DNA of 34,674 nt from Caulobacteraceae bacterium (GTDB lineage: Bacteria > Pseudomonadota > Alphaproteobacteria > Caulobacterales > Caulobacteraceae), in contig PLRV01000092.1 of assembly GCA_003164925.1 (NCBI GenBank), forward strand, positions 1 through 34,674, read 5' to 3'. The notes beneath the pieces were generated by a model, which was not told where the DNA came from, made no database searches, and was given only the letters and a program-made list of their open reading frames with translations. The position numbers and the translations under genes were made by a program. Shown here piece after piece: positions 6,200-22,306 of the stretch. The first letter of the stretch is position 1. Each line of letters begins with the position of its first letter.

Positions 6200-7018
6200 G
6201 TGAGGATCGTCCTGGGCTGTCTGCTTGGCCTGTGCGTAGGGGCAGGAGCCGTTGGCGACGCCAGCGCGCAGCCCGCGATGTCGTCATTTCCCATTCCAGG
6301 CGCCGCCAGCAGCGCGCCGAGAATTCCTTACTTTTCCGGCGATGTGATCACGCCGCTGGAGGCAGGGTTGCCGCTGCCTTCCAAGAATCCGCGTAACTTC
6401 GAGGGGACTTGGGCTAGTCTCGGCCACCCGATCAATGCGGACGGCACGCCGCCTCCCTACCGGCCGGACATTCTGGCCGAGATGACGCGGCTGAGAAAGC
6501 TCAACGACGCGGGCATGCCGGAGGTGGCGAAGAATACGCTCTGCCGGCCCAATGGTCCTATCGCCATGACTGGCAATCAATTCCCCACGCAAATACTTCA
6601 GCGCCCGGAGAAGATACTCTTCTTGGCAGAGGAGGGGCGGACGATATGGGAGGTCGACATGAGCGGTCGGCCTTCCTCCGACACGAAGCTGGCCTACGGC
6701 GGCCACAATGTCGGGCATTGGGAAGGCAATACCCTGGTGATCGAATCCAAGGGCCACAAGCCGCATATTCCCAGCATTTTCTCTGCCGGAAACTCGGACA
6801 AGCTGCATATCGTAACGAGGATCACGCGCGCCAATACGGGCGATCCGCTTAATGACGAGCGACTGGTGATCTATCAGACAATCGACGATCCCGGCGTCTA
6901 TACCAAGCCCTGGACGGCGGTGAACGTCGCCCGCTGGCGGCCTGATATGCAGGTTCTCGAATTCAATTGCGAGGAGAGCTCAGACGAGGACGTGAGCCGG
7001 GGGCTGACGGTGAAATGA
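6200..7018 (+). CDS. GHWEGD-family secreted protein, subtype A
   Basis: This is a 272-residue protein of unknown function with a Sec signal cleaved near DASAQ. Family landmarks are NFEGTW (66-71), LCRPNG (114-119), GHWEGNTLVIES (172-183), IDDPGVYTKPWT (228-239) and FNCEES (255-260). The mature protein has only two cysteines, C115 and C257, 142 residues apart, so one disulfide is likely. It starts at a GTG, chosen because GGAGGG sits five bases upstream. The next gene encodes the B-type partner 40 bp downstream. The same A/B pairing recurs at 16832-18490 and 20616-22306. The fold is probably beta-rich; an enzymatic role has not been shown to my knowledge. Confidence 0.8.
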   Translation: MRIVLGCLLGLCVGAGAVGDASAQPAMSSFPIPGAASSAPRIPYFSGDVITPLEAGLPLPSKNPRNFEGTWASLGHPINADGTPPPYRPDILAEMTRLRKLNDAGMPEVAKNTLCRPNGPIAMTGNQFPTQILQRPEKILFLAEEGRTIWEVDMSGRPSSDTKLAYGGHNVGHWEGNTLVIESKGHKPHIPSIFSAGNSDKLHIVTRITRANTGDPLNDERLVIYQTIDDPGVYTKPWTAVNVARWRPDMQVLEFNCEESSDEDVSRGLTVK

Positions 7019-7058
7019 GCGCTGCATCCCTAACTGCTCTGTCGCCGAGGTGACCGCA

Positions 7059-7751
7059 ATGTTGAAGACAAACGGACTGGTGTTGTGCGCGGTCGGCCTG
7101 TTCCTTGCCGGGCCGGCGTTCGCGGCCCCGGACTTTACCGGAGTTTGGCGCCTCGATGGCGATGCGACAGCCCTGCGGTCGATTTCCGGAAAAACGCCGC
7201 CGCTCACGTCGTGGGGCCGCGAGCAGTACGAGCACAATCAGGCGGCCTTCGCGCGCAAAGACTATAGCGGCGATCTGACCCGGCTACAGTGCGCGAGCGC
7301 TGGCGCGGTCCGCTTGATAACGCTGCCTTATCCGGTGGAATTCTTCCAACGCCCCTTTCAGCTAACGATGCTGTTCGGCTGGAATCACGAATATCGACTG
7401 ATCAATCTCAGACCGACGGCCATGACGACGCCCTATGAGTTGGCGATCGGCATCTCGAACGGCCATTGGGAGGGCGACACGTTGGTCGTGCGCACCACCG
7501 ACCTGACGGACAATACGCTTCTCGACTCCGCCGGCCTTCCTCATGGCGACAAGACGATCGTGACCGAGCGGATTCGCATGCTCGACCGACGCCACATGGA
7601 AGACGTCGTGACGATCACCGACCCCAAGGCCTATTCACGGGATTGGTCGTTTCGGCTTGGCTATCACAAGACGGCGGCTAAAGGCGTGGCCGAGGATGTT
7701 TGCCTCGACCGCATGGCGGCCGGTGGTCCTGCGCTAGAGAATCCGCAGTGA
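7059..7751 (+). CDS. GHWEGD-family secreted protein, subtype B
   Basis: This is a 230-residue secreted protein (signal MLKTNGLVLCAVGLFLAG, cleavage near AFA-APDF). Landmarks are FTGVW (26-30), LQCASAG (77-83), LFGWNHEYR (105-113), NGHWEGDTLVVRTTD (134-148), TITDPKAYSRDW (185-196) and EDVCLDR (212-218). The two mature cysteines, C78 and C215, are 137 residues apart, exactly as in the B proteins at 17726-18490 and 20616-21317. The ATG at 7059 is preferred to the GTG at 7050 because GAGG lies eight bases upstream of it. It follows its A-type partner and precedes the ModA-like gene. Function is unknown; constant pairing with an A protein suggests a heteromer. Confidence 0.8.
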   Translation: MLKTNGLVLCAVGLFLAGPAFAAPDFTGVWRLDGDATALRSISGKTPPLTSWGREQYEHNQAAFARKDYSGDLTRLQCASAGAVRLITLPYPVEFFQRPFQLTMLFGWNHEYRLINLRPTAMTTPYELAIGISNGHWEGDTLVVRTTDLTDNTLLDSAGLPHGDKTIVTERIRMLDRRHMEDVVTITDPKAYSRDWSFRLGYHKTAAKGVAEDVCLDRMAAGGPALENPQ

Positions 7752-7813
7752 CGGATCGAGACCGGTCGACAATGGCGGATATGCTCGGCCAACCGAGCGG
7801 AGATGGAGAGACT

Positions 7814-8665
7814 ATGCAGTCCTTGAAGGCTTTTTCGGCGACATGCGCTTCCGCCGTGTTCGTATTGGCGGCTGCAAGCACGCCCCTTCATGCCCAACCG
7901 GCCAATCCTTCGTCGGCGGCGCCCGGCCCCGCGGCCGGTTCGATGGCCCCACTGCCGGGGGCGATGACCGAGAAGCTGGCGGATGCGAAACCCGGCGAGC
8001 TGCGCGTGTTCGCGAGCGCCGCCATGTACCTGCCGTTGGAATCGGTCAGGAAGCAGGCTGAAAGCGCCGTGGGAGCGCCGGTGCGCATTCAGTACGGTTC
8101 CGCCCGTGGCGACCTCAAATCTCATATATCCGACGGTCAGGCGTTCGATGTCGCCATCCTGTTGCCCGACGTCATTCATGACCCAGGCGTCGCCAGCAAG
8201 GTCGACCCCCACGAGTATCCTTTAGCCACCATTCCGGTCGGCATCGCCATGCGCGGCGACGCACCGTCGCCGGACGTGAGCACGCCGGCCGCGCTCCGAA
8301 CCGCGCTGCTCAATTCGCGCGCCGTGAAATACGCCCCGACCGGGGCGGCGCGAGCCACGGTCGATCGCGTGCTCTCCTCCCTGGGCGTCGCGGACAAGAT
8401 CAACGACGTGAGCGGCGTGCTCTCCAACGTCACCCTGGCGCCGGGCGAATATGAGATCGACTTCTTTCCTATCAGCGAGATTTTGCCGAACCACCGGCTC
8501 AAGAACCTGGGCCTTGTGCCGGAGCCGCTTCAAGTTCCCGTTCAGATCGAGGCCGTGATCGCGCGTGGAGCCGACGTTGGCGCTGCGCAAGCCTTTGTGC
8601 GGTTTCTGGAGGGGCCGGCCATCGACCCGCAGTTGAAATCAAGCGGGATGGTCAAGGCGCGCTGA
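7814..8665 (+). CDS. ModA-like periplasmic substrate-binding protein
   Basis: This is a 283-residue secreted protein of the type 2 periplasmic binding fold (SBP_bac_11/ModA-like). After the signal (VFVLAAASTPLHAQ) and a Pro/Ala linker come ELRVFASAAMYLPLESV, RIQYGSARGDLKSHI, FDVAILLPDV, the hinge-region KYAPTGAARATVDRVL, YEIDFFPISEILP and AQAFVRFLEGP near the end. These correspond to the order of ligand-binding loops in ModA relatives. No ABC permease or ATPase is nearby, so it may be an orphan receptor or ligand carrier rather than a molybdate importer. The start at 7814 has GGAG five bases upstream. The ligand is unknown. Confidence 0.78.
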   Translation: MQSLKAFSATCASAVFVLAAASTPLHAQPANPSSAAPGPAAGSMAPLPGAMTEKLADAKPGELRVFASAAMYLPLESVRKQAESAVGAPVRIQYGSARGDLKSHISDGQAFDVAILLPDVIHDPGVASKVDPHEYPLATIPVGIAMRGDAPSPDVSTPAALRTALLNSRAVKYAPTGAARATVDRVLSSLGVADKINDVSGVLSNVTLAPGEYEIDFFPISEILPNHRLKNLGLVPEPLQVPVQIEAVIARGADVGAAQAFVRFLEGPAIDPQLKSSGMVKAR

Positions 8666-8805
8666 CTTTCGCCAAAACTGGGGGCTGCGCTCGCCGAAAT
8701 TGATCCTCGGCGCGGTCATGGCCCCGGCGTCGGTTTCGCCCTTTCGACATCTTGCGGTCAGGCGCAGCTGGAACACAGCCGGGCCATTCGTGGAGAGAAG
8801 ACGCG

Positions 8806-9570
8806 ATGAACAGCAGCGGGCGATCTGGCTCACGGGTGATGGCGGCGGCGTGCGTGATGGGAAGCCTGCTCCTGTCGCCGGCGGCGGCGCAGGCGCAGCG
8901 CCGCATGGATCCCATCCCGGCCGACAAGTTTACCGCCGAGCAGAAAGCGGCTCTGCAGATCTATCAGGACACACGCGGCCGGCCGCTGACCCGTTCGCTC
9001 TTCATGGACCTGCTGCGCGTGCCTGATGCGATGATCGCCACCCTGCGGCTACGCGAGCACGTCCAGAACCGCAACCTGTTCGGTGACAAACTCACCGAGT
9101 TTGCGCTGCTCATCACCCTTCGAGAATGGTCGCAGCGGCAGGAATGGAGCGGCCACGCCTTCGTCGCCGAGCGTGTCGGCCTTGAGCCGGAGGTCGTCAA
9201 TGCGCTCGCCGAAGGCCGCTATCCCCGGACGATGACCGACGAGGAATCGATCATCTACGATTTCACGACCGAGCTGGAGCGGACGCACGGCGTCAGCGAC
9301 GAGACCTACAACCGGATGGTGCGACGCTTCGGCGAGGAGGGCGTGATCGAAGCGATCACCATCGCCTCGCTCTACACGACGGTTGGCATGACGCTGAACA
9401 CCGTGCGTGAGCCCATTCCGGCCAGATACAACGAACTGCCCGATCTGCCGCAGGAGCACTCCTTGCCGGCGGGCGTCTACGAGCATCCCATCGCGCAGAC
9501 GGATCCGCCGCCGCCGATGACGCCCTTCCGACCGACGCCGCCGCCGCCGCAGCCACAGCCACAGCACTGA
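8806..9570 (+). CDS. Secreted carboxymuconolactone decarboxylase-like protein
   Basis: This is a 254-residue protein with a signal ending AAAQAQ and an all-helical CMD/AhpD-type domain (about residues 55-215). The core reads ITLREWSQRQEWSGHAFVAE, with E107, W114 and H117 in the family positions. The Cys pair of AhpD peroxidase relatives is absent, so a redox role is unlikely; a decarboxylase- or lactonase-like reaction is more plausible. The C-terminus is a Pro-rich tail (PPPPMTPFRPTPPPP) that could be a flexible tether. It starts at the ATG at 8806 after GGAGAG. It is the last gene of the plus-strand run that begins with DUF6152, and its stop overlaps a short hairpin shared with the convergent gene. 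Confidence 0.8.
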   Translation: MNSSGRSGSRVMAAACVMGSLLLSPAAAQAQRRMDPIPADKFTAEQKAALQIYQDTRGRPLTRSLFMDLLRVPDAMIATLRLREHVQNRNLFGDKLTEFALLITLREWSQRQEWSGHAFVAERVGLEPEVVNALAEGRYPRTMTDEESIIYDFTTELERTHGVSDETYNRMVRRFGEEGVIEAITIASLYTTVGMTLNTVREPIPARYNELPDLPQEHSLPAGVYEHPIAQTDPPPPMTPFRPTPPPPQPQPQH

Positions 9571-9584
9571 GCTCGCGCGCTCAG
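9567..9584. terminator. Short hairpin at convergent stops
   Basis: CTGAGC and GCTCAG pair across a six-base loop. The hairpin includes the stop codons of both converging genes (plus stop at 9568-9570, minus stop at 9581-9583). There is no T-run, so it may act only as a transcript-end structure. Confidence 0.35.
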
Positions 9585-10387
9585 CGCAGCCGCGAATAGG
9601 GCATGGGGCGATGAAGGTCGATCGTCTCGGTGGGATAGATGGCTCGCATCGCCGCCTGCAGCTGGACGGCGTCGGCTGATCTGGCGATCGCGTCGCGCGA
9701 GGACCAGTAATGGTCCATGCTTCGGTAGCGCCAGACATGCAGCATGTATGACGGGGTCCAACCGAAGAAGGTTTCGAAGGCTCCGTGCAGTTCCGCACCC
9801 GTACTGGCGGCGAGCGCCAGGTATTCGCCCATCAGGCGCGCATGAGATTGCCCGTCCCTCATCAGCGGCCGCACGATGCGGTGGGTGACGATGACGCTGT
9901 CGTCGCCGTGCGTCGCCGGGAGCGGCTGCTCCGGATGATAGGGCAGGGGCGTCATCACAGCCGAGAACAACACCTCCTCGATCGGCACCACGGCCGCCGC
10001 CGCGGCGCCGCCGGCGCGCGGGTTCGATCGCACCTTCGCCATGGCCTGGTAGTGCGCCAGATCGCGATAGGCCCATTGGTGCGTCGCTGCATCCTGTTGG
10101 CCGGTAAGGCCGTACCAAGCGGCCCACAGCGACTGGCCGCGCGCTTCGAGCGACACGACGTTCTGGGTCCAGAACTTGATCCAGTCCTCAAGCTTTCCGG
10201 CGGGATAGCGGACGTAGATGTCGAACATCATGCCGCCCGGCGCGTCCGATATCGGCGCACTGGTCTGCGCGGCGGCGCCATCGGCCAGAGCCGCCGTCAT
10301 GGCCGTTCCACCGGCCACGGCGGTCAGGAACAGATCGCGCCGGGTCGTCCCCAAGGCGTTTTCTGCCCTATTTTCGATGGCGGCCAT
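9581..10387 (-). CDS. Tat-exported NIPSNAP/ABM-like protein
   Basis: This is a 268-residue protein with a twin-arginine signal (TTRRDLFLTAVAGGTAM). The mature part starts with MFDIYVRYPAGKLEDWIKFW and contains WAYRDLAHYQAMAKVRSNP, a pattern like the NIPSNAP or dimeric ferredoxin-like (ABM) fold. A second similar half may follow (GEYLALAASTGAELHGAFE, MLHVWRYRSMDHYWSSRDA), giving a tandem arrangement. Such proteins are often small monooxygenases or cofactor-independent enzymes on hydrophobic substrates, but no active site can be assigned. AGGAGAG precedes the start at 10387. It is the second gene after the SMP-30-like gene, 46 bp away. Fold assignment is moderate; the Tat signal is clear. Confidence 0.6.
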   Translation of the reverse strand: MAAIENRAENALGTTRRDLFLTAVAGGTAMTAALADGAAAQTSAPISDAPGGMMFDIYVRYPAGKLEDWIKFWTQNVVSLEARGQSLWAAWYGLTGQQDAATHQWAYRDLAHYQAMAKVRSNPRAGGAAAAAVVPIEEVLFSAVMTPLPYHPEQPLPATHGDDSVIVTHRIVRPLMRDGQSHARLMGEYLALAASTGAELHGAFETFFGWTPSYMLHVWRYRSMDHYWSSRDAIARSADAVQLQAAMRAIYPTETIDLHRPMPYSRLR

Positions 10388-10433
10388 TTTTCTCTCCTTT
10401 GAACAGCCCGCGTTCGGGGACTGCGCGTTCCGT

Positions 10434-11339
10434 TCAGCTCCAAGCGAGCTTGAGGCCGGGGCGCGGCCATCTGAGCCGGACCAACTTGCCGGCGGGAGTC
10501 ATGGTTGCGTAGACGGTTCGGCGATCGGGCCCGGCAAAGGCGAGATTGGTCACCCAGCCGGGGAAGGGGACGCGCTCGACGAAATCCCCATCCGGCGACA
10601 GCACGGTCAACGCACCTTGCTGCAGCGTGCCCACGACGATATTTCCGCACGCCTCGACTTTCATCGAATCGAACTCGATGTCGCCGCCGAGGCTGGCGAG
10701 GATGCGGCGCGCGGGCCGGCCGTTTGGCAGGGTCGTGACCGTTCCTGGTTGGGTGATCGTATAGGCGAGCACTTGGCGTGTGTCGGTCAATGCGACGTAG
10801 AGCGTCCGCCCGTCCGGCGACAAGGCGACGCCGTTTGGGGTTATGAGGCCCCGGTCGATCTCGCGACATTCCGATCCATCCGCGCGGGCCCAACAGAGGC
10901 TGCCCAGATCCATGCTGCGCTGGCCGATCTTGCCCATGTCGGTGAACCAGAAGCCGCCATCGGCGTCGAACACCAGATCGTTGGGGGCGCGCAGCTGCTG
11001 CTCGCCGACGCGGTCGTATAGCGTCGTCACCGCCCCGCTGGCCAGATCGACACGCTGGATTGAGCCGTTCGGCGGCGGCGGTGCGCCGCCTTCACCGAAT
11101 TGCATCACGCGCTTGCCGTTGACCATCTTGCTCAGATAGCCGCCGTTGTTGGCGACGAAGCAGGCGCCGCCAGGGCCGATCGCAGCGCCGTTCGGCCCCC
11201 CGCCGGTCTGGGCGACGACCCGCCGGCTGCCGTCCGGCAGGATCTTCGTCAGCCGACCACCCAATATCTCGCAAACGAGCACCGACCCGTCGTCGAAGGC
11301 GATCGGCCCCTCTGGCGCCTCAAGGCCATCCGCCACCAC
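10434..11339 (-). CDS. SMP-30/gluconolactonase family protein, start uncertain
   Basis: This is a six-bladed propeller lactonase/paraoxonase-like protein. EGPIAFDDGSVLV supplies the first metal-ligand Glu, RAPNDLVFDADGGFWFTD the Asn of blade 3, and ITPNGVALSPDGRTLYV the conserved Asn/Asp pair. Family members hydrolyse lactones or esters with a bound Ca2+. The only standard start in frame is GTG at 11339, giving 301 residues without a signal. The open frame continues upstream to about 11483 and there encodes a convincing Tat signal (RPGRRTFLRGLGAA, ALASTTGSALAAP). No ATG, GTG or TTG exists in that part; an ATA at 11481-11483 followed by ACC ATT TCA looks like a mutated ATG. Export is therefore in doubt. 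Confidence 0.85.
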   Translation of the reverse strand: MVADGLEAPEGPIAFDDGSVLVCEILGGRLTKILPDGSRRVVAQTGGGPNGAAIGPGGACFVANNGGYLSKMVNGKRVMQFGEGGAPPPPNGSIQRVDLASGAVTTLYDRVGEQQLRAPNDLVFDADGGFWFTDMGKIGQRSMDLGSLCWARADGSECREIDRGLITPNGVALSPDGRTLYVALTDTRQVLAYTITQPGTVTTLPNGRPARRILASLGGDIEFDSMKVEACGNIVVGTLQQGALTVLSPDGDFVERVPFPGWVTNLAFAGPDRRTVYATMTPAGKLVRLRWPRPGLKLAWS

Positions 11340-11520
11340 GTTCGCCGAGGTGATCGCTAAGGGCGCCGCAAGGGCGCTTCCCGTCGTGGAGGCCAGGGCG
11401 GCGGCGCCTAGCCCCCGGAGGAAGGTGCGTCGACCGGGTCTTTCGGCCGGATACAGGGCGTTATCGGAGGGTGAAATGGTTATGCCTCATGGTGGCGAAG
11501 GCGGTCATTATCGTTGGCGG

Positions 11521-11588
11521 AGAACTTCGCTGTTTGGCCGCCGGTTTTCCATCCGGCTGAGCCAAAACAGCTATGCGCAAAGCTCATG
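11521..11588 (+). repeat. Recurring intergenic box, copy 2 (left arm of inverted repeat)
   Basis: This arm reads AGAACTTCGCTG, then GGCCGCCGGTTTTCCATCC, GGCTGAGCCAAAACAGC and TATGCGCAAAGC. It matches the reverse complement of 11890-11957 at 61 of 68 positions. Within it, GTTTT and AAAAC form an outer dyad separated by 15 bases (11544-11568). Confidence 0.85.
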
Positions 11589-11657
11589 GCCTCGGTGTCG
11601 CTGCTGGTGTGGATCGCGGCGATTTTCTGCCGACGCGGGATCGCCTACGCGATCTGA
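11571..11657 (+). pseudogene. C-terminal relic of a DUF6644-like membrane protein
   Basis: The frame reads AKLMASVSLLVWIAAIFCRR, then GIAYAI and a TGA stop at 11655. One hydrophobic helix followed by a Cys/Gly, an Arg and a short aromatic end is how DUF6644-type proteins commonly finish. The rest of the gene is missing; the repeat arm sits in its place. Identification rests on short similarity recalled from the family. Confidence 0.4.
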
Positions 11658-11690
11658 AACGGCCCTGTGCAGTCCATTGAGAGCAATTCC

Positions 11691-11786: not shown

Positions 11787-11889
11787 CGACCAATTCGTCC
11801 AGGCCCAGCGCCGGGCCATGCTCAAGCAAAACCGGATTTTCGTCCGACGGCCAAAGCCTATTCCGAACTCATAAAAAGCAACACCCGGC

Positions 11890-11957: not shown

Positions 11958-12221
11958 AAACCGGCTTACATGTCAGGGGTGACATCGAGGACGTCTCGCT
12001 GATGGTGCAAATCGCGTCGCCTATGTCGCATGGGCGGCGGAGTTGTTCTTTTCGCGCAAGTGTCATGCAAGTTGTTCATGCGCCATGCGAAAGAAGTCTG
12101 CATAAGTAGCGTAGAGTTACCGCCTACAGCTCGTGATTGGTCCTATTTCACAGCTGGATGGCGGGCATATAGCGAAGGACGCGTAAGGCGTTCGGGATTT
12201 CACACAATATGGGGAAACATC

Positions 12222-14459
12222 ATGAAGAGTAGATTCAAAGGCATTATTCTGAGCAGCTCATGCGCAACCGCGCTGGCCGTCTTTATGCTTCCGGTCGGAG
12301 CGGCGAACGCCCAGACGACCACGAGCCCCCAAGCTGGCGCCGCGCACGTAGAAACCTTGGGCGAAGTCGTCGTGACCGCCGAGCGGCGTACGAGCACGGC
12401 GCAGAAGACCGCCGCGTCGGTCAGCGTCCGCTCGGGAACCCAGCTGCTTCAGCAGGGCAGATATCAGCTCAGCAACATTATTGAAGATGTTCCGGGCATC
12501 GCCGGCGGCGCCAAAGTGGATGGCGGCAGCTCTGCCATCCCGGGAAGCGACAATCCGGCCGCAGGTTTGATCATCCGCGGCATCCCGTCCAACACACCGG
12601 GGGGCGGCTCCATCACCTCGGCCGCTGCGGCGGCGGCGCTCTACGTCGACGATGTCTACAACGGCGTCGGCGGCGGCTATGACCTCGACCGGGTTGAGGT
12701 GCTGCGCGGACCGCAGGGCACGCTCTACGGTCGCAGCGCCACCACGGGCGTCGTGGCGATCCACACCGGCGATCCAGATCTGCACAAACTCGGCGGCAAT
12801 ATCTCCGCCGAGGACGGCACCGCCAATCTGCACCGCGTTTCCGGTGCGGTGGATGTGCCGATCATCGACGACAAGGTCGCCCTCCGCATTTCGGGCAGCC
12901 GGTATGAGCGGGACGGCTTCGATACGCCTCAAGGCGCCCGTACCACCAGCTCCGATGGGCGTGTGAAACTCCTGGTCAAGCCGACCGACAATTTCACCGC
13001 TCTGTTCGGCGCGGCATGGGAGGACAATATGCTCAGGACCGGCGGCCTGAACATGACTGAGTTTCCGCTGGGCGTTTATACCTATACGCCCGTCGGCATT
13101 CAGGAAGTCGACACCCGGAATCGTCAGCTCTGGACGAATATGAACCTCGACCTTGGCGGCGTGGGCCTGACCTATATCGGCGCCTATCGCAATTTCCAGG
13201 CGAGCGGCGGGGCTAACCTTGGCACCCTCAACCAGACCATCAGCGTGCCGTCGGATCATTTCTGGACGAACGAATTCCGCGTCCATTCGCAGAATGACTC
13301 CACCCTGCAATGGCAGGCGGGGGTGACCAGCTATTTGAACGATATGCACGACCAGAATTTGATCGTAAGTCCCTCCACCGGAACGACCAGCGCCGATTCT
13401 ATCGAGCATAAGAAAACCACCGCCGTAGGCGCCTTCGCCGAAGCGACGTGGCACGTCTTGCCCAACACGCGGATCACCGGCGGCCTTCGCTACGACTATA
13501 CCGACGTGCAAAACGACGAGATCTACAGCCAGTCGATTTCTTCGTTTCCGCCCATCCCGGCGTTGATCACCTCCACGATCTCCGGAGACACCGGGCACCG
13601 GACGTTCGGCAACGTCACTTACAAGGCCCGCATCGAGCAGGACCTTACCCCGGTGAACATGCTCTACGCCATGGCTTCAACCGGCTTTTCGCCGGGCGAT
13701 GTCGCTCTGGCGACCAATGCCGGCGGCGCCCCGGTGGTGACCAGCTTCCAGGCCGAGACCCTGTACGCCTATGAGGCCGGTTCCAAGAATCGCTTCTTCG
13801 ACAACCGCCTGGAGGTCAACGCCGACGTCTATTACGAGGACTACGGCGGCTTTCAGACTGCGGTCAACGTCGGCTCGGCTTTTGCGGGCATCTATAGGTC
13901 GGTCCTCACACCGATCACCGCCTATGGCGGGGAATTTGAGGCTATTGCGCGGCCCTGGACGGGCGGTCAGATCGGCTTAAATATGGACTATGTGTTCTCG
14001 CGCTACCACAATATCGATCCGCTGTTCCAGCCTTTCTTTGCCCGCAGTGAGATCGTCGGCGTCGTCCCATTCAAGCTGACGCTGTCGGGGGATCAGGCCT
14101 TCCCGCTGGGGGAAAGCACCACCTTCTCGGTGCATGGCGACCTTCGCTACCACTCAGCCTATGATGCGGCCCGGCTTCAGACGAATCAGCTGGCCTGGTT
14201 GCCCTATGCGGTGGACCCGGCCGGCGTGATCGAAGATATCAGCGCGACGTTGTCGTTCGACCACAACCGCTACGCTCTGACCGGCTATGTCCGCAACGTC
14301 GGCAATCTGCGGCAGCTGAACGCCAACGTTCCTTTCGTCTTCATTTCGAACACCCCCGCCGCCAGCCCCCTGCCCACGCCCCCCTTCCTACCCGCGAGCA
14401 GCGGCATGCAGCTGACCGATCCGCGGACCTTCGGGGTCGTGGCCACGGCGAAGTTCTAG
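12222..14459 (+). CDS. TonB-dependent outer-membrane receptor
   Basis: This is a 745-residue receptor. A Sec signal (cleavage near GAANAQ) is followed by a TonB box-like LGEVVVTAERR (about 46-56) and the plug domain: SNIIEDVPGIAGG, LIIRGIPSNTPGG, ALYVDDVY and DRVEVLRGPQGTLYGRSA. The 22-strand barrel ends with TFGVVATAKF and a terminal Phe, as expected for Bam-assembled barrels. The start at 12222 has GGGGA seven bases upstream. Plug and barrel type fit the large group of receptors for organic substrates (iron complexes, sugars, aromatics); the cargo cannot be deduced. It stands alone on its transcript but sits centrally among secreted catabolic genes, so import of their substrate is the likely role. 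Confidence 0.95.
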   Translation: MKSRFKGIILSSSCATALAVFMLPVGAANAQTTTSPQAGAAHVETLGEVVVTAERRTSTAQKTAASVSVRSGTQLLQQGRYQLSNIIEDVPGIAGGAKVDGGSSAIPGSDNPAAGLIIRGIPSNTPGGGSITSAAAAAALYVDDVYNGVGGGYDLDRVEVLRGPQGTLYGRSATTGVVAIHTGDPDLHKLGGNISAEDGTANLHRVSGAVDVPIIDDKVALRISGSRYERDGFDTPQGARTTSSDGRVKLLVKPTDNFTALFGAAWEDNMLRTGGLNMTEFPLGVYTYTPVGIQEVDTRNRQLWTNMNLDLGGVGLTYIGAYRNFQASGGANLGTLNQTISVPSDHFWTNEFRVHSQNDSTLQWQAGVTSYLNDMHDQNLIVSPSTGTTSADSIEHKKTTAVGAFAEATWHVLPNTRITGGLRYDYTDVQNDEIYSQSISSFPPIPALITSTISGDTGHRTFGNVTYKARIEQDLTPVNMLYAMASTGFSPGDVALATNAGGAPVVTSFQAETLYAYEAGSKNRFFDNRLEVNADVYYEDYGGFQTAVNVGSAFAGIYRSVLTPITAYGGEFEAIARPWTGGQIGLNMDYVFSRYHNIDPLFQPFFARSEIVGVVPFKLTLSGDQAFPLGESTTFSVHGDLRYHSAYDAARLQTNQLAWLPYAVDPAGVIEDISATLSFDHNRYALTGYVRNVGNLRQLNANVPFVFISNTPAASPLPTPPFLPASSGMQLTDPRTFGVVATAKF

Positions 14460-14788: not shown

Positions 14789-16190
14789 CTGCGACGTGGT
14801 GATCGCCACGATCTCCGGCGGGGCCGGATCGGTCAGGCTGCCGCTATGGGCAGGCTGACGAAGGGATCATCGCTCAGCGGGGCGACACTTTCCACTGTCA
14901 TGTAGCGCGACCTCTGGACGGCCCACTCGTCGTTCTGTTCGAGCAGGATGGCGCCGACGAGGCGGGTGATGGCGGCCTCGTTGGGGAAGATGCCGACCAC
15001 GTCGGTGCGCCGCTTGATCTCGCCGTTGACCCGCTCGATCGGATTGTTGGAGTGCAGCTTGGTGCGATGCTCCTTTGGGAAGGTCATGTAGGCGAGCACG
15101 TCGGTCTCGGCCTCATCCATGACGGCGGCGAGCTTGGGCACGCGAGGCCGCAGCTGATCGGCGACCTGCCGCCATTGAGCCTTGGCGGCGGCCTCGTCAT
15201 CCTGGGCGAAGGCTGTTCCGACGAAGGCGGAGACGACCCGGCGCTGGGTCTTGCCGGCGTGGGCCAGGGCGTTGCGCATGAAGTGCACGCGGCAACGCTG
15301 CCAGGTCGCGCTGAGCACGCGGGACACGGCCGCCTTGATGCCTTCGTGAGCATCGGAGACCACCAGCTTGACGCCGCGCAGGCCGCGCCGAGTGAGCTTA
15401 CGCAGGAACTCGATCCAGAACGTCGCCGCCTCCGAGACACCGATGTCCATGCCCAGGATCTCGCGCCGGCCGTCGCTGTTGACGCCCACGGCGATGATCA
15501 CCGCCACCGAGACGATGCGCCCGTTCTGGCGGACCTTCAGATAGGTGGCGTCGATCCAGATGTAGGGCCAGTCGCCCTCGATCGGCCGATCCAGAAAGGT
15601 GTGGACCCGCTCGTCGATCTCCTCGCAGAGCCGCGAGACTTGGCTCTTGGAGATGCCGCTCATCCCCATGGCCTTGACCAGGTCATCCACCGAGCGGGTC
15701 GAGATTCCCTGGATGTAGGCCTCCTGGATCACCGCCGTCAGCGCCTTCTCCGCCAGCCGCCGCGGCTCCAGGAAGCCGGGGAAGTACGATCCCTTCCTCA
15801 GCTTGGGGATGCGCAACTCCACCGTCCCGGCCCGGGTCTCCCAGTCACGATCGCGGTAGCCGTTGCGCTGAACCAGCCGCTCGGCGCTCTTCTCGCCGTG
15901 GACGGCCCCGGTCAGGGCGCCCACCTCCAGTTCCATCAACCGCTCCGCGGCGAAGCCGATCATCTCGCGCAAGATATCGGTGTCCGCGCTCTTCTCCATC
16001 AGCCCACGCAGGGCCATCATGTCGTTGGTCATCTTCGGTCTCTCAGTTGGGGTGTGTGTTGCAACCCAACCCTACCGAAGATCGTGGATGACCACCGCGC
16101 AGCCGCTCACTCGCTACGGCGCCCAATGGGGGCGCGCTTCGCGAGCGGCTCCGCTACCGTCGGCGAGCTACACCACGTCCGGGGACACGA
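14762..16190. mobile_element. IS256 family insertion sequence
   Basis: The element is about 1.43 kb. Terminal inverted repeats are 14766-14790 (TCGTGTCCCACTCCGTGG...) and the complement of 16166-16190 (TCGTGTCCCCGGACGTGG...), matching at 20 of 25 positions. CCGCGGCG occurs on both flanks (14754-14761 and 16191-16198) and may be the 8-bp target duplication. That would leave four extra bases outside the left repeat, so the left boundary is uncertain by a few bases. It encodes one transposase on the minus strand and splits a DUF6152 gene. Confidence 0.85.
14833..16032 (-). CDS. IS256 family transposase
   Basis: This is a 399-residue, apparently intact mutator-type (IS256) DDE transposase. Catalytic residues are D161 ([10 protein letters not shown]), D227 ([14 protein letters not shown]) and E333 ([14 protein letters not shown]), with the family C-x-x-H motif at C247-H250 ([12 protein letters not shown]). 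Length matches the family, and no frameshift or stop is seen, so the element may still be mobile. The start at 16032 follows GAGAGACC. It is transcribed opposite to the split DUF6152 gene. Confidence 0.96.
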
Positions 16191-16199
16191 CCGCGGCGC

Positions 16200-16592
16200 A
16201 TGGCAGCCTTCGCGGCCGCTCCGGCCTTCGCCCACCACTCCTTCAACGCCTATGATATGAGCAAGACCGAGGCGGCGTCGGGCTCCATTAAGGAGTTTCG
16301 CTGGGGCGCGCCCCATTCGTCGGTGGTGCTGCTTTTCCTGGACAAGGACGGTCAGCAGCAGACCATGTCCTTGGTCAGCGGCAGCCCGTTGGCGTTCTCC
16401 AAGCAAGGGTTCGCGCCGCGCGATTTTCATCGCGGGGATAAGGTGACCGTCAGCTACCATCCCAACACCGGCGGCGCTCCCGGCGGGGCCCTGGCCAGCC
16501 TGACCCTGCCCGATGGCAAGACCTACAAGGACGCCGAAGTCGCCGCCGCGCCTGCCGATGCGGCCGCTCCCGCTGGTCCTCCAGGCAAGTAG
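16200..16592 (+). pseudogene. DUF6152 family protein, 5' end lost to IS256
   Basis: The open frame gives 130 residues starting MAAFAAAPAFA then HHSFNAYDMS, which is the last part of a Sec signal and the whole DUF6152 domain (SGSIKEFRWGAPHSSVVLLF, QTMSLVSGSPLAFSK, GDKVTVSYHPNTGG, ASLTLPDGKTY) with an Ala/Pro-rich tail. The ATG at 16200 is only an internal Met with no convincing ribosome site. The positive N-region and most of the hydrophobic core of the signal are at 14717. If translated, the product would probably stay in the cytoplasm. The mature domain keeps the His-His start and the W..PH motif. Joined directly at the proposed target repeat, the two halves are one base out of frame. Confidence 0.8.
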
Positions 16593-16831
16593 GCGGAGTT
16601 CCGCCTACGAGGCCGTCGCGCCGTCCTGGCCGGCGCCCTCGTGGCCGCCGGATCACATCGTCGCCATTCAGGTCGCGATTGTCTTGCGCGCAGATGCGCC
16701 GCCGGGCGCAAGCACGCCGGACGGGCTGTTCAATGCGGCGCCGTGTTCGCGCGCACGCTCTGGTTCTGACCGCTTCATTGCAGCGGCCGCGCATCACCGC
16801 CAGGCGATGCGTAGCCGCTCTCGCCTCTTAA
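16593..16831. other. Convergent intergenic spacer
   Basis: This 240-bp stretch lies between the DUF6152 fragment and the 3' end of the minus-strand GHWEGD A gene. It is GC-rich, with no gene or strong terminator recognised. Confidence 0.35.
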
Positions 16832-17701
16832 TCAGTCCTTCGGCTCGGGGATCAGGCCGGCGTCGGCGTCGACGCTCGGATCGCCAATCTGCTCCTCGCA
16901 GTTATACTCCTTCATCACCGCGCGGTTCGGGCGCCAGTGATAGCGCCGCGCGACGGTCCAGGGCCGCGTGTAGTAGGTCGGATCGTCGATGGTGATCAGA
17001 ACCTGCAGATAGGGGTTGCGGTCGCCCGTATTCACCTTGCGGATGCGGTACGTCAGCTTCCCGGACGCGGAAAAAGGGGTCCCGTCTGCGTCGAGCCAGA
17101 AATCATGCGCAAAGTCCTTGGTCTCGACCACCAGGGTGTCGCCTTCCCAATGTCCCTCCGAGCGGCCCATGTAGGCTTTTTCCTTGGGGACCGGCACGGC
17201 GCGCGGATCCAGAACAACGTTCCAGGTTCCATGGAATTCCTCGAACACCCACTCCATCCCCAGCTTCGATTGGAAGATATGGAAGGGGAAGTTCAGGTCG
17301 AGCTGCCAGAACTGGCCGGGCGGACGGCAGATCGCTGAAGCGTTGATGTACGGCGATTTAGACTTCACCCGCCGCGCCAGGACCTTGGCGCCCGCGTCGT
17401 TGAACGGCGGGTAAAGCGCGTACATGTCGCGCACATTGCGGAAGATCAGGTCGTCAATGTGCATCCACGTGCCGGAGAAATCGTGCGGATCGGCCGACGG
17501 CATGGGCGCATTGGCCGGAAGCGGCGGCGGTTGCCGATTATCGAGAGGTTTGGGAGGCCGCAGGCCGGTGACCGTCTGCAGGGCGGGCGAGAGAGGCGGA
17601 TGTGTGAACTGCGCCAGGGCGCTGTCGCAAAAGGCAAGTTGCGAGGCGACGGCGAGCCACAGGCTGGTTTGCCGGGCGGACAGGGCTGTACGAAGTCTCA
17701 T
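16832..17701 (-). CDS. GHWEGD-family secreted protein, subtype A
   Basis: This is a 289-residue protein with a Sec signal ending CDSALAQ. Landmarks are HDFSGTWM (73-80), ICRPPGQFWQ (124-133), SEGHWEGDTLVVETKDF (181-197), TIDDPTYYTRPWT (237-249), WRPN (256-259) and YNCEEQIGD (266-274). Mature cysteines are C125 and C268, 143 apart. AGGAGATATTCA precedes the start at 17701. It follows its B-type partner by 24 bp on the same strand, so the order here is B then A. It is about 40% similar by eye to the A protein at 21314-22306 and shares the C-terminal DADAGL..EP ending with it. Function is unknown. Confidence 0.8.
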   Translation of the reverse strand: MRLRTALSARQTSLWLAVASQLAFCDSALAQFTHPPLSPALQTVTGLRPPKPLDNRQPPPLPANAPMPSADPHDFSGTWMHIDDLIFRNVRDMYALYPPFNDAGAKVLARRVKSKSPYINASAICRPPGQFWQLDLNFPFHIFQSKLGMEWVFEEFHGTWNVVLDPRAVPVPKEKAYMGRSEGHWEGDTLVVETKDFAHDFWLDADGTPFSASGKLTYRIRKVNTGDRNPYLQVLITIDDPTYYTRPWTVARRYHWRPNRAVMKEYNCEEQIGDPSVDADAGLIPEPKD

Positions 17702-17725
17702 TGAATATCTCCTAAGCCGCTGCGG

Positions 17726-18490
17726 TCACTTGCCCGCCAATATCGCGTCGTAGCTCTTCAGCCGGTCCAGGCAGACGTCCTCCGGGAACATCGCCGCGGG
17801 CTGGCGCTTGTAGGTGATCACGCCGCCCCAGGGATGGGTGTAATAGGCCGGATCCTCGACGGTGATGCGGTCTTCCAGGGTGTCGTGATCCACAAGGCGG
17901 AAGCGCTCGATGATCTTGGCGTCGAAAGAGCGCGGGGTAAGGTCGTCCAGCAGCGCCCGTTCCGATCCGTCCGTGGTCGTTGCGACCAGGGTGGCGCCGT
18001 CCCAGCGGCCGATCGAACGGCCGGTCATCGTCGGCGCGTCCAAGGGCGGGGTGTCGATCCCGCGCATGTCGATCTGGCGCTGCGCGCGATTCCATTCATA
18101 GACGAAGGTCAGCACCCCTTGCCGCTGCCAGATCTTGAAGCGCAGCGGCGTCAAGCCAAGGCGTGGAACGCCGGGGTTGGAGCAACGCGACGTGTAGATG
18201 TCGTAATCGTCGTAGTCGCCCTTGGCGCGATAGGCCTTGTTCTCGTCGTACTCCTTGCGGCCCGCAGGGGTGAAGGGGATCGCTTCGGCCGGCTGCAGCG
18301 TCGACCGCGGCTTGGCGATCTTCCACACCCCTTCAAAGTTGGCGCCGGCCCGAGGTATCGCCGAATCCTTTGGCGCCACCATCGATTCCGGCGCCATTTG
18401 GGCATGTACCGGCGCAGCCAGCATGGCCGCGGCCCACAGGCCAACGGCGACCCTGCCCGCCCATCCCAAACGCAAGTCGATCATCGTCAT
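17726..18490 (-). CDS. GHWEGD-family secreted protein, subtype B
   Basis: This is a 254-residue protein with a Sec signal ending APVHAQ. Landmarks are NFEGVWKI (51-58), SRCSNPGVPRLGLTPLRFKI (101-120), YEWNR (131-135), GRWDGATLV (161-169), VEDPAYYTHPW (211-221) and PEDVCLDR (236-243). Here the signature motif has changed from GHWEGD to GRWDGA, so the His is not essential to the fold. C103 and C240 are 137 apart. The ATG at 18490 is chosen because AGGAA lies five bases upstream; GTG at 18508 and ATG at 18502 or 18484 are alternatives. It is 43 bp downstream of the EthD-like gene and 24 bp upstream of its A partner. Confidence 0.8.
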   Translation of the reverse strand: MTMIDLRLGWAGRVAVGLWAAAMLAAPVHAQMAPESMVAPKDSAIPRAGANFEGVWKIAKPRSTLQPAEAIPFTPAGRKEYDENKAYRAKGDYDDYDIYTSRCSNPGVPRLGLTPLRFKIWQRQGVLTFVYEWNRAQRQIDMRGIDTPPLDAPTMTGRSIGRWDGATLVATTTDGSERALLDDLTPRSFDAKIIERFRLVDHDTLEDRITVEDPAYYTHPWGGVITYKRQPAAMFPEDVCLDRLKSYDAILAGK

Positions 18491-18533
18491 CGGTTTCCTC
18501 ATGTCCACGCCGAAGCGGCGAGCGGCCCGTTTC

Positions 18534-19361
18534 TCACTTCACCTCAGGCGACGCGGCGGTGGCCATGAAGCCCTTTCCGTGTTGGGTGCCAAAAGCATCG
18601 GACATCACCGTGATCTTCTCCTTGATCCTCCGGCCTATCTCGCTGTTCGTCGCTTCAAGACTGCGGCTATAGAAGTGGAAGATCACCAAGTAGCGAGGGA
18701 AGTCGGTCTCTCCGCCAATCCGAATGAAGCGTTGCGCCGAGGCGAAGCCAGGCACGCGCAAAACGTCGGGCACGTGTTGGAGATCGTACCAACGATTGTA
18801 AGCGTCTTCCTTTTCTGGCGTGGCCGGATCGCTGAAGACCACGAGGTAATGATCCTGCAGCGGACCGTCGCCGAGCGGCGTGGGATTTGTGCCGGGGATC
18901 TGCTTGGCAAGGACGACGGGCCAAAGCGGACGCAACAAAACGCGTTGGGTTTGCGCGGGGTCAACAGAAGGGTCCTGAGAAAGGCGACCATCCTTCGTGA
19001 GCTGTTCGATCCGCTGGTCTAGTCTGGACGTCTCGCCGGCCTTGACCACATAGAACGTCACACTGGCGGGCAGATTGTGATGGGCGTTGCCGGTCAGCTC
19101 GATGTTGTATCGCTGGCCGCTGACGACGCCTGGAACAGCCGCCAAGTCTCGCAGATGGCGTTCAGACCATTGGGCGAAGGCCTGCTCTTGACCCGGCTTG
19201 GCTTGGCCGAACTCCACCCATAGATCCTGATCTGACGTCACCGGCACGGTTACGGAGGCGGGCGCGACCGTCTGCGCGTTGGGCGCTGTCGGAGCCGCGA
19301 ACAGCGCCGCCGCGAAGGCCACGGAACGGAATAGGGCGGGCGCTTTCATTAGGCGACTCAT
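18534..19361 (-). CDS. Secreted tandem EthD/ABM-like protein
   Basis: This is a 275-residue protein with a signal ending APNAQ and two ferredoxin-like (dimeric alpha-beta barrel) units. Unit one is about 45-150 (LWVEFGQAKPGQEQAFAQW, then HLRDLAAVPGVVSGQRY). Unit two is about 170-265 (YLVVFSDPATPEKEDAYNRW, then YDLQHVPDVLRVPGFASAQR). The F/YNRWYD..HVPDVL.VPGF pattern is that of EthD-type proteins, used in cleavage or oxygenation of ethers, quinones and polyketides. A second member is at 23731-24372. It is the first gene of a likely three-gene minus transcript with the following B/A pair. The start at 19361 has AGGAAG upstream. Substrate is unknown. Confidence 0.78.
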   Translation of the reverse strand: MSRLMKAPALFRSVAFAAALFAAPTAPNAQTVAPASVTVPVTSDQDLWVEFGQAKPGQEQAFAQWSERHLRDLAAVPGVVSGQRYNIELTGNAHHNLPASVTFYVVKAGETSRLDQRIEQLTKDGRLSQDPSVDPAQTQRVLLRPLWPVVLAKQIPGTNPTPLGDGPLQDHYLVVFSDPATPEKEDAYNRWYDLQHVPDVLRVPGFASAQRFIRIGGETDFPRYLVIFHFYSRSLEATNSEIGRRIKEKITVMSDAFGTQHGKGFMATAASPEVK

Positions 19362-19684
19362 GCGTTCGTCTTCCTGGTCAAGGTCGAGCGTGTGGCAATG
19401 GAGTTAGACCGCGCTCTGCGCCGAAAGCGGGCAGGCGGCGCAATCGCATGATGTCCGGCCGAAATCTTGAAGACCCGCAGAGCCGCCCTGCCTTGTCGGC
19501 GCGTCGGCTAAGAAGATCGACAATGAATCAATAAACCGCCGGATCAAGAATAGCTCCAGCGCCTCCTCCGACGATTATTTTGCTGACAGAGCAGCTATGT
19601 AGCTTTGCTAACACTGTCGCCGGAGCACTAGCAATCGAAACCAAATTGCATTTTGAGCATATCTGCTTTGATTTTGGTTGTCGG
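19362..19684. other. AT-richer promoter region for the EthD/B/A genes
   Basis: This 323-bp gap contains a relatively AT-rich island (19560-19680). On the minus strand it reads CAACCAAAATC, then GCAGATATGCTCAAAATG, a weak match to the recurring box. On the plus strand GAGCAGCTATGTAGC (19588-19602) is another partial match. It probably holds the promoter for the genes ending at 16832. No coding sequence is supported. Confidence 0.4.
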
Positions 19685-20599
19685 CTAAGGTGTTCCGATA
19701 TCGCCGAGTGCTCTGAAGGTCTTCGCATCATAGTGAGCGAGGCATCGGCGCGCCCGCTCTTCGGGCTGGCTGGCTAGGATGAACGGAAGCGCGGCGTCCG
19801 TGAACGCAGCGGGTTGATCCCATTGCGGCGTATGCGACGCGTTCTCCAGCACGACCAATCGTGCATCGTGCATCTTCTCCACCATTCTCGCCCCTTCAGC
19901 CGGCGATTTTCCATGGTCCTCGGCGCCCTGGATGATCAATGTCGGCGCCGTAATTTCCCCGAGGCGCTCATAGGTGCTCCAGTTCTGGTTCGAGGTGTCG
20001 GCCTCCACACCCGCATCACGGTTCATGCGGTCGAACGCCTCGTAGAAGAGGCCGGCGTACGCCTTTGGCGGCTTTTTGGCGAAAAAGAACCCGTCAATCG
20101 TCGCGGACGTGCGCCAGGAGGCAAGCTGGGCCTCGCGGGTTCGTGGCGCGGGGTAGGTCGACCGAGAGGCGGTCGCGATGAGCACAAGTCTCTCGGTCAG
20201 GTCCGGATGATTCAACGCCACGTATTGCGCGACCGTGCTGCCCATCGCGCCGCCGACGAGGGTTGCCGAGCTAAGACCGCGCGCCTGCATGAATTGCGCG
20301 ATCGTTTCCGCCAGCGCCGGGATCGTATACGGCCCAGGCGCGTCGGCTGACCGCCCGAAGCCGGGAAGATCAAAAGCGATGGCGTGAACGCCGCAATCGC
20401 CCAGGAGCTGCATCCAGGGCGTCCAATAGTCGGCGGATTGGCCAAATCCATGAATGAAGATCACGGCGTGCGCGCCATGCCCGCGCTCGACATAGCGCAT
20501 GCTCGTGGCGCCGGCGCCCGCCGCCATGGCCGGGCCCACGACCCCGGCGAACAGCGCGCCCGCCATCAGAGCCTTTAGGAATGTGCGCAGGATCATCAT
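19685..20599 (-). CDS. Secreted alpha/beta hydrolase-fold protein lacking nucleophile Ser
   Basis: This is a 304-residue protein with a Sec signal ending PAMAAG. The fold is clear: IFIHGFGQSADYW (oxyanion loop, about 47-59), AFDLPGFGRS, LIIQGAEDHG with acid D228, and NASHTPQWDQP with H256. The nucleophile elbow, normally G-x-S-x-G, reads GGAMG (116-120), so Ala118 replaces the serine. Classical ester hydrolysis is therefore unlikely; a lyase, dehydratase, decarboxylase or cyclase role, or a binding role, would fit. It is the last gene of a minus-strand operon after the NTF2-like gene and an A/B GHWEGD pair, 16 bp after the B gene. ATG at 20599 or 20596 could start it. Confidence 0.85.
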   Translation of the reverse strand: MMILRTFLKALMAGALFAGVVGPAMAAGAGATSMRYVERGHGAHAVIFIHGFGQSADYWTPWMQLLGDCGVHAIAFDLPGFGRSADAPGPYTIPALAETIAQFMQARGLSSATLVGGAMGSTVAQYVALNHPDLTERLVLIATASRSTYPAPRTREAQLASWRTSATIDGFFFAKKPPKAYAGLFYEAFDRMNRDAGVEADTSNQNWSTYERLGEITAPTLIIQGAEDHGKSPAEGARMVEKMHDARLVVLENASHTPQWDQPAAFTDAALPFILASQPEERARRCLAHYDAKTFRALGDIGTP

Positions 20600-20615
20600 G
20601 TTCCCCGTCGCTGGT

Positions 20616-21317
20616 TCAAGGTAGAGGCATCTTGCCGGCGTCCCGGCGGTCCAGGCACACGTCCTCTGGGAAAGCTAAGTCCGGTTGGCGCTGGTAGGTC
20701 GCCTGCGTGTGCCAAGGGCGGGTAAAAAACGCGGGATCGCTAATGGTGATTTGATCGCGGAGGGTGTTTGGACCCGTAAGGCTCCAGCGCTCCTCCACGA
20801 CCATGTCCGAGTCGTGCGGCGTCAGGTTGTCGATCAGCGTGTTCTCGTCGAAGTACTGCGACTTGATGACGAGCGTCTTGCCTTCCCAATGACCCCGCGA
20901 AACCCCGACCGCCGGGCCGACAAACGGCTGTTCGGCAGTGCGGCCTGTCATGTCCACTTCGCGGTGAAGCCGGTTCCATTCGTATTCAAACACCACGAAC
21001 CGCGCACGCGGCCAGATGCGGAACCGCCAGGGCGTCAAGGAAAGCCGTGGCACGCCGGGCGAAGCGCAGCGCGACTGGGTGCGGTCGAAGCTGAAATCGC
21101 CTTTGGCCAGGGCGGCCTTGTTCTGCTCGTAGGCTGTTTGGCCCGCCGCGGTGAAGGGGATCGGGCCATCGATCGGCGTGAAGGCGCTCCGGGGGCTGGT
21201 GATTTTCCAGACGCCTTCGAGACCATTGTCCCGAGAGGCTGCGTGGGACGAAAGCGGCAGCAAGGCCAACGCCAGCGCCGCAACGACCAAGCCTCGGGCG
21301 GAAGGTGCGGTCCTCAT
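20616..21317 (-). CDS. GHWEGD-family secreted protein, subtype B
   Basis: This is a 233-residue protein with a signal ending SSHAAS. Landmarks are GLEGVWKITSPRSAF (32-46), SRCASPGVPRLSLTPWRFRI (82-101), YEWNRLHREVDM (112-123), GHWEGKTLVIKS (142-153), ISDPAFFTRPW (192-202) and FPEDVCLDR (216-224). C84 and C221 are 137 residues apart. The ATG at 21317 overlaps the TGA of the upstream A gene (ATGA) and has GGAGGA seven bases upstream, so tight translational coupling with its A partner is expected. It is clearly paralogous to the B protein at 17726-18490 across its whole length. Confidence 0.85.
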   Translation of the reverse strand: MRTAPSARGLVVAALALALLPLSSHAASRDNGLEGVWKITSPRSAFTPIDGPIPFTAAGQTAYEQNKAALAKGDFSFDRTQSRCASPGVPRLSLTPWRFRIWPRARFVVFEYEWNRLHREVDMTGRTAEQPFVGPAVGVSRGHWEGKTLVIKSQYFDENTLIDNLTPHDSDMVVEERWSLTGPNTLRDQITISDPAFFTRPWHTQATYQRQPDLAFPEDVCLDRRDAGKMPLP

Positions 21318-22306
21318 TGTGCGTCCTCCGGCGGCTCTGGCACAAGGCCAGCATCGGCGGGCACAGATTTGTCGCCAATCTGCGTCTCGCAATCATACTC
21401 TTCCAATACTTCCATGTCTGGCCGCCAAGCGAAGGTTTGCATCAAACTCCATGGGTGGGTGTAATAAACGGGGTCATCAATAGTCGTTACAATTTCCAGG
21501 AACCAATGGCCCTGATGAACCTTGCGAATGCGCTGGGTGATGATGGCGTCCGCCGAGGCGGGCGTGCCGACAGCGTCCAGCAAGGTTGGGATCTTCATTC
21601 CTTTGGTGACGACCACCAGGGTGTCGCCAACCCAGTGGCCGACGGAAACCCCCATGTAGCTCTTGTGATCCGCCGGCGGCGCTTTAGCGGGATCTAGATA
21701 GATCGTCTCGCGCCCGTGATAATCCTGAAACAGCAGCTCCAGCCGATCCTTGGATTGGAGCAGCACGAAGGGATAGTTTATTTCCTGCTGCCAGAGCACG
21801 CCGGGCGGGCGACATAGGGCAGCGGCGTTGGAATAGGGCTTGCCGATCCCCTGCGCCTTCACACGGCGCGCAAGCAGTTTGTGGCCGCGCGCCGTGTAGG
21901 GCGGCGGGTTGTCGTACATGTCGTGCTGGAATTCGAAGCCCAGCATTTGGTCGTGGACCCACGCTCCTTCCAGATTGTGCGGATCGGGAGAAGGATCGGG
22001 CAGCCCCGCCGGGAGCGGCGGCACCAGTTGGGCCAGCAGCCTCTTTCCGCTCAGCCCGGGATGCAGTTCTTTGGGCGGCGGCGGCTTCAGGTCGGCGTTC
22101 TCAGGGATGTCCCAAGGCTGAGCGCCCACAGCTGGGGGAGGAGCACCGCCGGCGGGAGGAGCGCCGCTGACGCCTGGACCCGACGGTTGACCTTGCGCGG
22201 CGGGGGCGGCGAGCAACGCCAGGCCCATGGCCGCCGTGCAAAATAGGGCCGACGGGACACCCGGGCGAAGATGATTGAGCATTCGGCGAATGGGCTTTTC
22301 CTTCAT
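21314..22306 (-). CDS. GHWEGD-family secreted protein, subtype A
   Basis: This is a 330-residue protein, the longest A member because of a Pro/Gly-rich linker (about 41-115) after the signal (LALLAAPAAQGQ). Landmarks are HNLEGAWVHD (110-119), LCRPPGVLWQQ (164-174), GHWVGDTLVVVTKG (223-236), TIDDPVYYTHPW (275-286), WRPDMEV (294-300) and YDCETQIGDKS (304-314). C165 and C306 are 141 apart. The reading frame extends to 22498, but the MKEKPIRR start at 22306 gives a proper signal peptide. The stop is ATGA-coupled to the B gene. The NTF2-like gene upstream ends 88 bp away. Function is unknown. Confidence 0.8.
   Translation of the reverse strand: MKEKPIRRMLNHLRPGVPSALFCTAAMGLALLAAPAAQGQPSGPGVSGAPPAGGAPPPAVGAQPWDIPENADLKPPPPKELHPGLSGKRLLAQLVPPLPAGLPDPSPDPHNLEGAWVHDQMLGFEFQHDMYDNPPPYTARGHKLLARRVKAQGIGKPYSNAAALCRPPGVLWQQEINYPFVLLQSKDRLELLFQDYHGRETIYLDPAKAPPADHKSYMGVSVGHWVGDTLVVVTKGMKIPTLLDAVGTPASADAIITQRIRKVHQGHWFLEIVTTIDDPVYYTHPWSLMQTFAWRPDMEVLEEYDCETQIGDKSVPADAGLVPEPPEDAQ

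Follow-up and report, generated by a model that had tools for sequence, protein, structure and literature searches.

Here, we analyse a family of paired, secreted-type proteins encoded in a 34,674-nucleotide stretch of DNA from a Caulobacteraceae bacterium (contig PLRV01000092.1; this whole stretch is called the window), which corresponds to contig C33 of a 3.44-Mb assembly in 100 contigs. An alpha-type tmRNA (242 bits), with Caulobacter as the sole match among 14 control genomes, places the genome in the Alphaproteobacteria; a search of the assembly for a 16S gene gave none. The two types of the family, A and B, share ancestry and occur as an adjacent gene pair that is real, old and co-inherited, that has been duplicated jointly and occasionally fused, and that is linked to genes of a third family, DUF6152. 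A and B are probably the two calycin-barrel subunits of a heterodimer and, with slightly better than even confidence, we propose that A–B pairs are secreted, disulfide-tied binders of hydrophobic or aromatic ligands that work with metal-binding DUF6152 proteins at uptake and catabolic loci. A previous interpretation of the window from its letters and translations (the sequence-only reading) had suggested an obligate, disulfide-stabilised A–B heteromer; it is partly supported by our results, which add to it a predicted fold, joint duplication, fusions and a third partner.

A family encoded in co-inherited pairs

The window encodes six members of the family, arranged in three pairs:

6200..7018, + strand: A1, A-type secreted two-cysteine calycin-like protein
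7059..7751, + strand: B1, B-type, partner of A1
16832..17701, - strand: A2, A-type (model of residues 31-289, mean predicted local distance difference test (pLDDT) score 82.3)
17726..18490, - strand: B2, B-type, partner of A2
20616..21317, - strand: B3, B-type, partner of A3 (model of residues 27-233, mean pLDDT 92.6)
21314..22306, - strand: A3, A-type, ATGA-coupled to B3

All six open reading frames (ORFs, which are mechanical calls throughout) lie where the sequence-only reading had placed them, and the one ATGA-coupled pair it described is that of A3 and B3, which overlap at 21314-21317. Their N-termini are of signal type, as judged here and elsewhere by eye, and each mature protein has exactly two cysteines, as had been claimed, with further cysteines only within the signal-type stretches. 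For none of the six does Pfam or NCBIfam give a model match at E < 1, and sequence searches with A and B, as single sequences or profiles, returned nothing convincing in these two databases, PHROGs or the PDB (best PDB E value 0.03).

Single-protein searches of the own genome matched 53 places with A1 and 55 with B3, and each recovered the other type, with A1 finding B3 at an E value of 1e-7; at the sequence level, the motifs common to A and B are true homology rather than chance. The genome holds 60 family ORFs, of which 23 were classed as A-type, 21 as B-type and 16 as others, a total that is maintained as one of the 16 others (L022_3585) is a spurious frame, removed from the family seed, and another ORF (L029_6901) was added by profile. 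Directly adjacent, same-strand A/B pairs include 20 of the 23 A and 20 of the 21 B genes, such that the threefold repetition described before is correct for the window but understated, its pairs being 3 of the genome's 20. Both gene orders occur (A-B in 7 pairs, B-A in 13), and partners overlap in frame at ATGA or GTGA in 8 of the 25 own couples of all types, where a couple is any two family ORFs on the same strand less than 200 bp apart and genes in runs are counted more than once. The exceptions to pairing are a second A within an A-B-A run (L022_9153), an A at L016 that adjoins a B remnant of about 50 C-terminal residues (L016:7596-7784, up to 90% identity), and is thus a broken pair, and an A and a B at L025 that lie about 2.3 kb apart. 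The own genome and two genomes of its genus each carry at least 50 family genes and, by the titles of the matched records, the family extends to Acidobacteria, Gammaproteobacteria, sphingomonads and Gemmatimonadetes.

A family tree was built from 309 domains (9 of 318 were excluded for covering less than 60% of the columns). One clade with 31 members (support 0.99) contains all 23 own A genes, and another with 25 members (support 0.73) contains all 21 own B genes. All four foreign B-clade genes abut an A, as does a B-like gene just outside the clade at L034; for foreign A-clade genes, five of eight abut a B and three do not. Among these foreign genes, the A/B adjacency put forward by the sequence-only reading holds for all of the B genes and for the A genes only in part.

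Distances among A genes follow those among their B partners, with a Mantel r of 0.891 for the 20 own pairs and 0.750 for 20 of 23 couples from the same-genus genomes G002 and G003; none of 9,999 permutations was as high in either test, from which the second A of L022 and the same-genus couples L152, L159 and L178 were excluded. In 105 of 108 couples and fusions, each partner has closer relatives at other loci than its own neighbour. Recent tandem duplication as the source of the pairing fits just 3 of 108 couples and was rejected. Four single-chain fusions (L045, L051, L098 and L106; 523-619 aa) carry two barrels and four family cysteines and, by tree tip order, the first half of each lies among the first genes of unfused pairs and the second half among the second genes. 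We propose that A and B were retained, moved and duplicated jointly because they act as a heterodimer.

As a side observation, the signal peptide of one B-type protein (L024:8024-8770) holds a Leu-Ser repeat run that is possibly slippage-prone.

Conserved cysteines and predicted fold

Cysteine occupies the first of the two conserved columns in 307 of the 309 domains and the second in all 295 that have a residue there; counting excludes the 14 domains in which the second column is empty, to which the two first-column exceptions belong, so that both cysteines are kept in 295 of 295 domains having both columns. Whereas the conservation anticipated by the sequence-only reading therefore holds, its near-constant spacings (142, 143 and 141 in A, 137 in each B) apply to the six window proteins and widen across the genome to 130 to 145 in the 23 A and 136 to 167 in the 21 B proteins.

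In separate AlphaFold models, A and B each form a complete calycin-type barrel, in agreement with the expectation of a common fold; the prediction is confident for B and fair for A. Both are antiparallel beta-barrels nearest to lipocalins, FABPs and avidins, with helices between strands one and two, and the best fold matches of both are fatty-acid- and retinol-binding proteins. The G-x-W motif lies on the first barrel strand (G in 290 of 291 and W in 269 of 292 domains), with G9 and W11 of the B model within strand 9-13, and the GHWEG motif caps a hairpin predicted in this model (strands 113-119 and 122-128). Besides the motif glycines, the conserved positions include charged residues (R in 265 of 309, E in 272 of 308, R in 266 of 308 and D in 304 of 307 domains). 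As to the Arg or Lys of the last strand that in calycins packs against the Trp of G-x-W, R184 on the last strand of B is at least 90% conserved, with no equally conserved counterpart seen in A.

The predicted barrel, the helices between its first two strands and the G-x-W of strand one are shared with FABP, CRBP and the wider calycins. Unlike these, A and B are bacterial proteins of secreted type that conserve a pair of cysteines and are encoded in heterotypic gene pairs; identity in the fold alignments is 7-18%, and FABP and lipocalin Pfam profiles are unmatched by all six window proteins. The carotenoid hydratase CrtC reportedly has two calycin-like barrel domains in one chain. Two barrels per chain are also described for DUF2006/NE1406 (PMC2954199), a layout like that of our four fusions, but no sequence relation to NE1406 or CrtC was detected, and A and B are usually two genes with a cysteine pair in each. 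Another co-encoded system is VtrA/VtrC, the Vibrio bile-salt receptor, described as an obligate heterodimer whose calycin-like barrel lies in the periplasm and takes a hydrophobic ligand; VtrA has another fold and contributes a strand to the barrel of VtrC, and the two proteins are membrane-anchored and signal to a virulence regulator (PMC4933562). A and B resemble it in being co-encoded and, if our proposal holds, in forming a heterodimer with a hydrophobic ligand, but each is predicted to be a complete barrel and by eye has no anchor beyond the signal peptide.

Alternatively, A–B could be an enzyme rather than a carrier, such as a hydratase, isomerase or cyclase of the CrtC or AttH kind in which two calycin barrels share an active site, with DUF6152 as a metal-dependent accessory. 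The occurrence of two calycin domains in one chain here, as described for NE1406 (PMC2954199), is in line with it, as are the conserved charged residues and the several enzymes among the neighbours, but the CrtC, AttH and lipocalin Pfam models are unmatched, as is any Pfam model at E < 1, and GHWEG sits at a hairpin tip in the B model. We regard an enzymatic pair as unlikely, though as the alternative to be taken most seriously.

DUF6152 and the genomic setting

Two DUF6152 genes flank pairs in the window, both above the gathering cut-off (114 and 69 bits, against 27):

5639..6142, + strand: DUF6152 (PF19649, E 3e-33), 5' of A1-B1 in the same orientation; possible N-terminal-histidine metal-binding protein
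16200..16592, + strand: DUF6152 (PF19649, E 3e-19), convergent with B2-A2

The genome has 23 DUF6152 copies, 19 of which are no more than 500 bp from a family gene, a distance that takes in only 2.6% of the genome. A sample of named loci was made up of the 80 top-ranking matches to a single B-type pattern, out of at least 551 confirmed ones, many of the 80 being cut by contig ends. In this sample, DUF6152 accounts for 37 of the 143 neighbouring ORFs tested (of 153; at most two per locus, within 600 bp) and the next family for 4. A domain-limited profile, used in place of one that drifted into the calycin family, probably via DUF6152–calycin fusions, gathered 99 DUF6152 proteins in the loci examined, which were chosen for the presence of a calycin. 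Of these proteins, 7 share a single frame with a calycin (L042:6417-7505, L045:1797-2918, L050:6626-7777, L050:7832-8881, L076:5278-6495, L078:5263-6498 and L090:550-1716), and 82 of the other 92 lie at most 500 bp from one, 77 of these on the same strand. Both families are present in the same 8 of 21 relatives and, in a check independent of the chosen loci, an identical set of 8 among 72,556 plasmid records, all from Sphingomonadales, matches each family. In three annotated plasmid stretches, DUF6152 overlaps or abuts the calycin, near a TonB receptor, monooxygenases or coenzyme A (CoA)-degradation genes; three further stretches are unannotated.

A His-His pair, preceded by A, G or S, directly follows the hydrophobic stretch in 98 of the 99 DUF6152 proteins, a set that is not blind to this region as the gathering profile spans it. 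An xPH motif follows later in 98 of 99 proteins, as NPH in 86, and the His-His pair together with P84 and H85 is invariant in 28 aligned sequences. LPMO and CopC are histidine brace metalloproteins. With cleavage of the apparent signal peptide presumed, we infer that His-His would form the mature N-terminus of DUF6152, which resembles an N-terminal-histidine metal site. Such a histidine after signal cleavage has been used to find metalloproteins, being present in 2.6% of signal-peptide-cleaved proteins of a SignalP set (PMC12537917), and the families described there, DUF4198, DUF6702 and anglerases, share with DUF6152 a histidine at the (here presumed) mature N-terminus and a conserved downstream histidine. 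DUF6152 is absent from the main text of that work, whose supplements were not searched, and we did not find it in a literature set of 5.39 million papers; the calycin family has no name to search by, and we claim no such absence for it. Comparison of DUF6152 with the PDB gave no convincing relative (best E value 0.054).

Two further gene arrangements were seen around these units. DUF6644 membrane-type proteins, two side by side (G000:C7:162646-163523, L182:5352-6327 and L185:11283-12301), occur at, or one to two genes from, DUF6152–calycin units and are possibly a further partner; the genome has 8 DUF6644 matches, of which only two (C7:162646 and C7:163128) adjoin a calycin pair. A separate calycin subfamily consists of six single genes without a calycin partner (L012:4527-5396, L017:6580-7485, L019:5639-6670, L020:539-1420, L028:7292-8236 and L028:10317-11198), with a DUF6152 gene overlapping or abutting in five of the six.

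Beyond DUF6152, 13 of 30 TonB plug domains are no farther than 5 kb from a family gene, a range that takes in 8.7% of the genome. The families listed for 109 of the 113 ORFs next to own pairs (25 of 98 families) include 7 DUF6152, 7 TonB barrels, SnoaL-like families with 4 and 3, 4 GntR and 3 alpha/beta hydrolases. In the window, several neighbours that look secreted by eye match SnoaL-like, solute-binding, NIPSNAP or hydrolase families of Pfam, and genes near the pairs include:

12030..14459, + strand: TonB-dependent receptor (longest mechanical ORF; Plug domain 12399-12752), possible uptake partner
19685..20599, - strand: secreted-type alpha/beta hydrolase (PF00561, E 1e-27; signal peptide by eye), directly downstream of A3-B3
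22395..22946, - strand: secreted-type SnoaL-like protein (PF12680, E 5e-10; signal peptide by eye), upstream of A3

Three other secreted-type neighbours (8752-9570, 18534-19361 and 23614-24372) have no Pfam match at E < 0.01; we take their products to resemble carboxymuconolactone decarboxylase and EthD-type proteins. Because of the TonB plugs, the hydrolases, the SnoaL-like proteins and the secreted-looking neighbours, the setting fits ligand-specific uptake and catabolic loci. Three transposases (3211-4332, 4398-5275 and 14833-16032) lie beside pairs 1 and 2 and are presumably IS110-, IS5- and IS256-like, the IS5-like one split across two frames.

Siderocalin binds a metal chelate, and the same setting could serve the acquisition of a metal or metallophore, with the calycin pair binding the chelate, DUF6152 taking the metal and the TonB receptor acting as the outer-membrane port. 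The N-terminal His-His and the Pro-His of DUF6152, as well as the 13 of 30 TonB plug domains near family genes, would suit such a role, as would the N-terminal-histidine DUF4198, described as binding nickel and adjoining TonB receptors (PMC12537917). However, twenty A/B pairs in one genome, some beside hydrolases, SnoaL-like or CoA-degradation genes, seem excessive for it, and the 25 of 98 neighbour families listed include no metal-responsive regulator. We consider metal acquisition improbable.

A proposed role for A–B and DUF6152

In the heterodimeric-binder reading that we favour, the fold is predicted and the disulfide, the heterodimer, the ligand, the metal and the division of labour are what we infer, ligand binding because of the predicted fold and the locus setting. 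A and B would be paralogous secreted, probably periplasmic, calycin barrels of FABP or retinol-binding shape, disulfide-tied, and DUF6152 with its His-His mature N-terminus would often complete the unit. A TonB-dependent receptor would carry a hydrophobic or aromatic compound over the outer membrane, the A–B barrel pair would bind it and hand it to locus-specific secreted enzymes, such as hydrolases or SnoaL-like proteins, and DUF6152 would contribute a transition metal that it binds, whether to deliver it or to use it in a redox step on the ligand. The A–B copies of the genome would each serve a separate ligand.

Several observations weigh against a general tie to DUF6152 and against obligate pairing. 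Only 9 of the 20 own A/B pairs have a DUF6152 gene within 500 bp, and of the 80 named loci, 24 hold an unpaired calycin with DUF6152 and 8 neither a calycin partner nor DUF6152; the pairing that the sequence-only reading called obligate is therefore widespread in the own genome but not superfamily-wide. Because of these 24 loci, the tie between DUF6152 and the calycin may predate A–B pairing. Across the class, DUF6152 matches 11 genomes, ten of them by one weak match, and 9 of the 11 show no calycin match, although the calycin search, which scored at most 18 candidates per genome, may miss some; one genome shows the reverse, with a calycin match and no DUF6152; DUF6152 and calycin as an all-or-none unit are rejected on these grounds.

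That the adjacency has no function, tandem duplicates simply staying together with each barrel acting alone, would suit a family whose members are all paralogues and the 24 and 8 of 80 loci above, but is very improbable given the 105 of 108 cases in which partners are nearer to relatives elsewhere, the two gene orders, the correlated distances and the fusions that join the types.

A bolder form of the binder reading, which we consider doubtful, is a widespread three-part periplasmic machine in which a histidine-first (copper-type) DUF6152 oxidant is held on a substrate-selecting calycin heterodimer, in about 20 ligand-specific copies per genome. If true, this would be a modular bacterial kit for metal-dependent attack on hydrophobic and aromatic compounds prior to cell entry.

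To our knowledge, calycins mostly act as single barrels. If the A–B pairs are heterodimeric ligand binders, they would represent an unusual calycin design and a way to find out which substrates many environmental bacteria use, and the link to DUF6152 joins two families of unassigned role in one hypothesis, the metal-dependent periplasmic handling of organic substrates.

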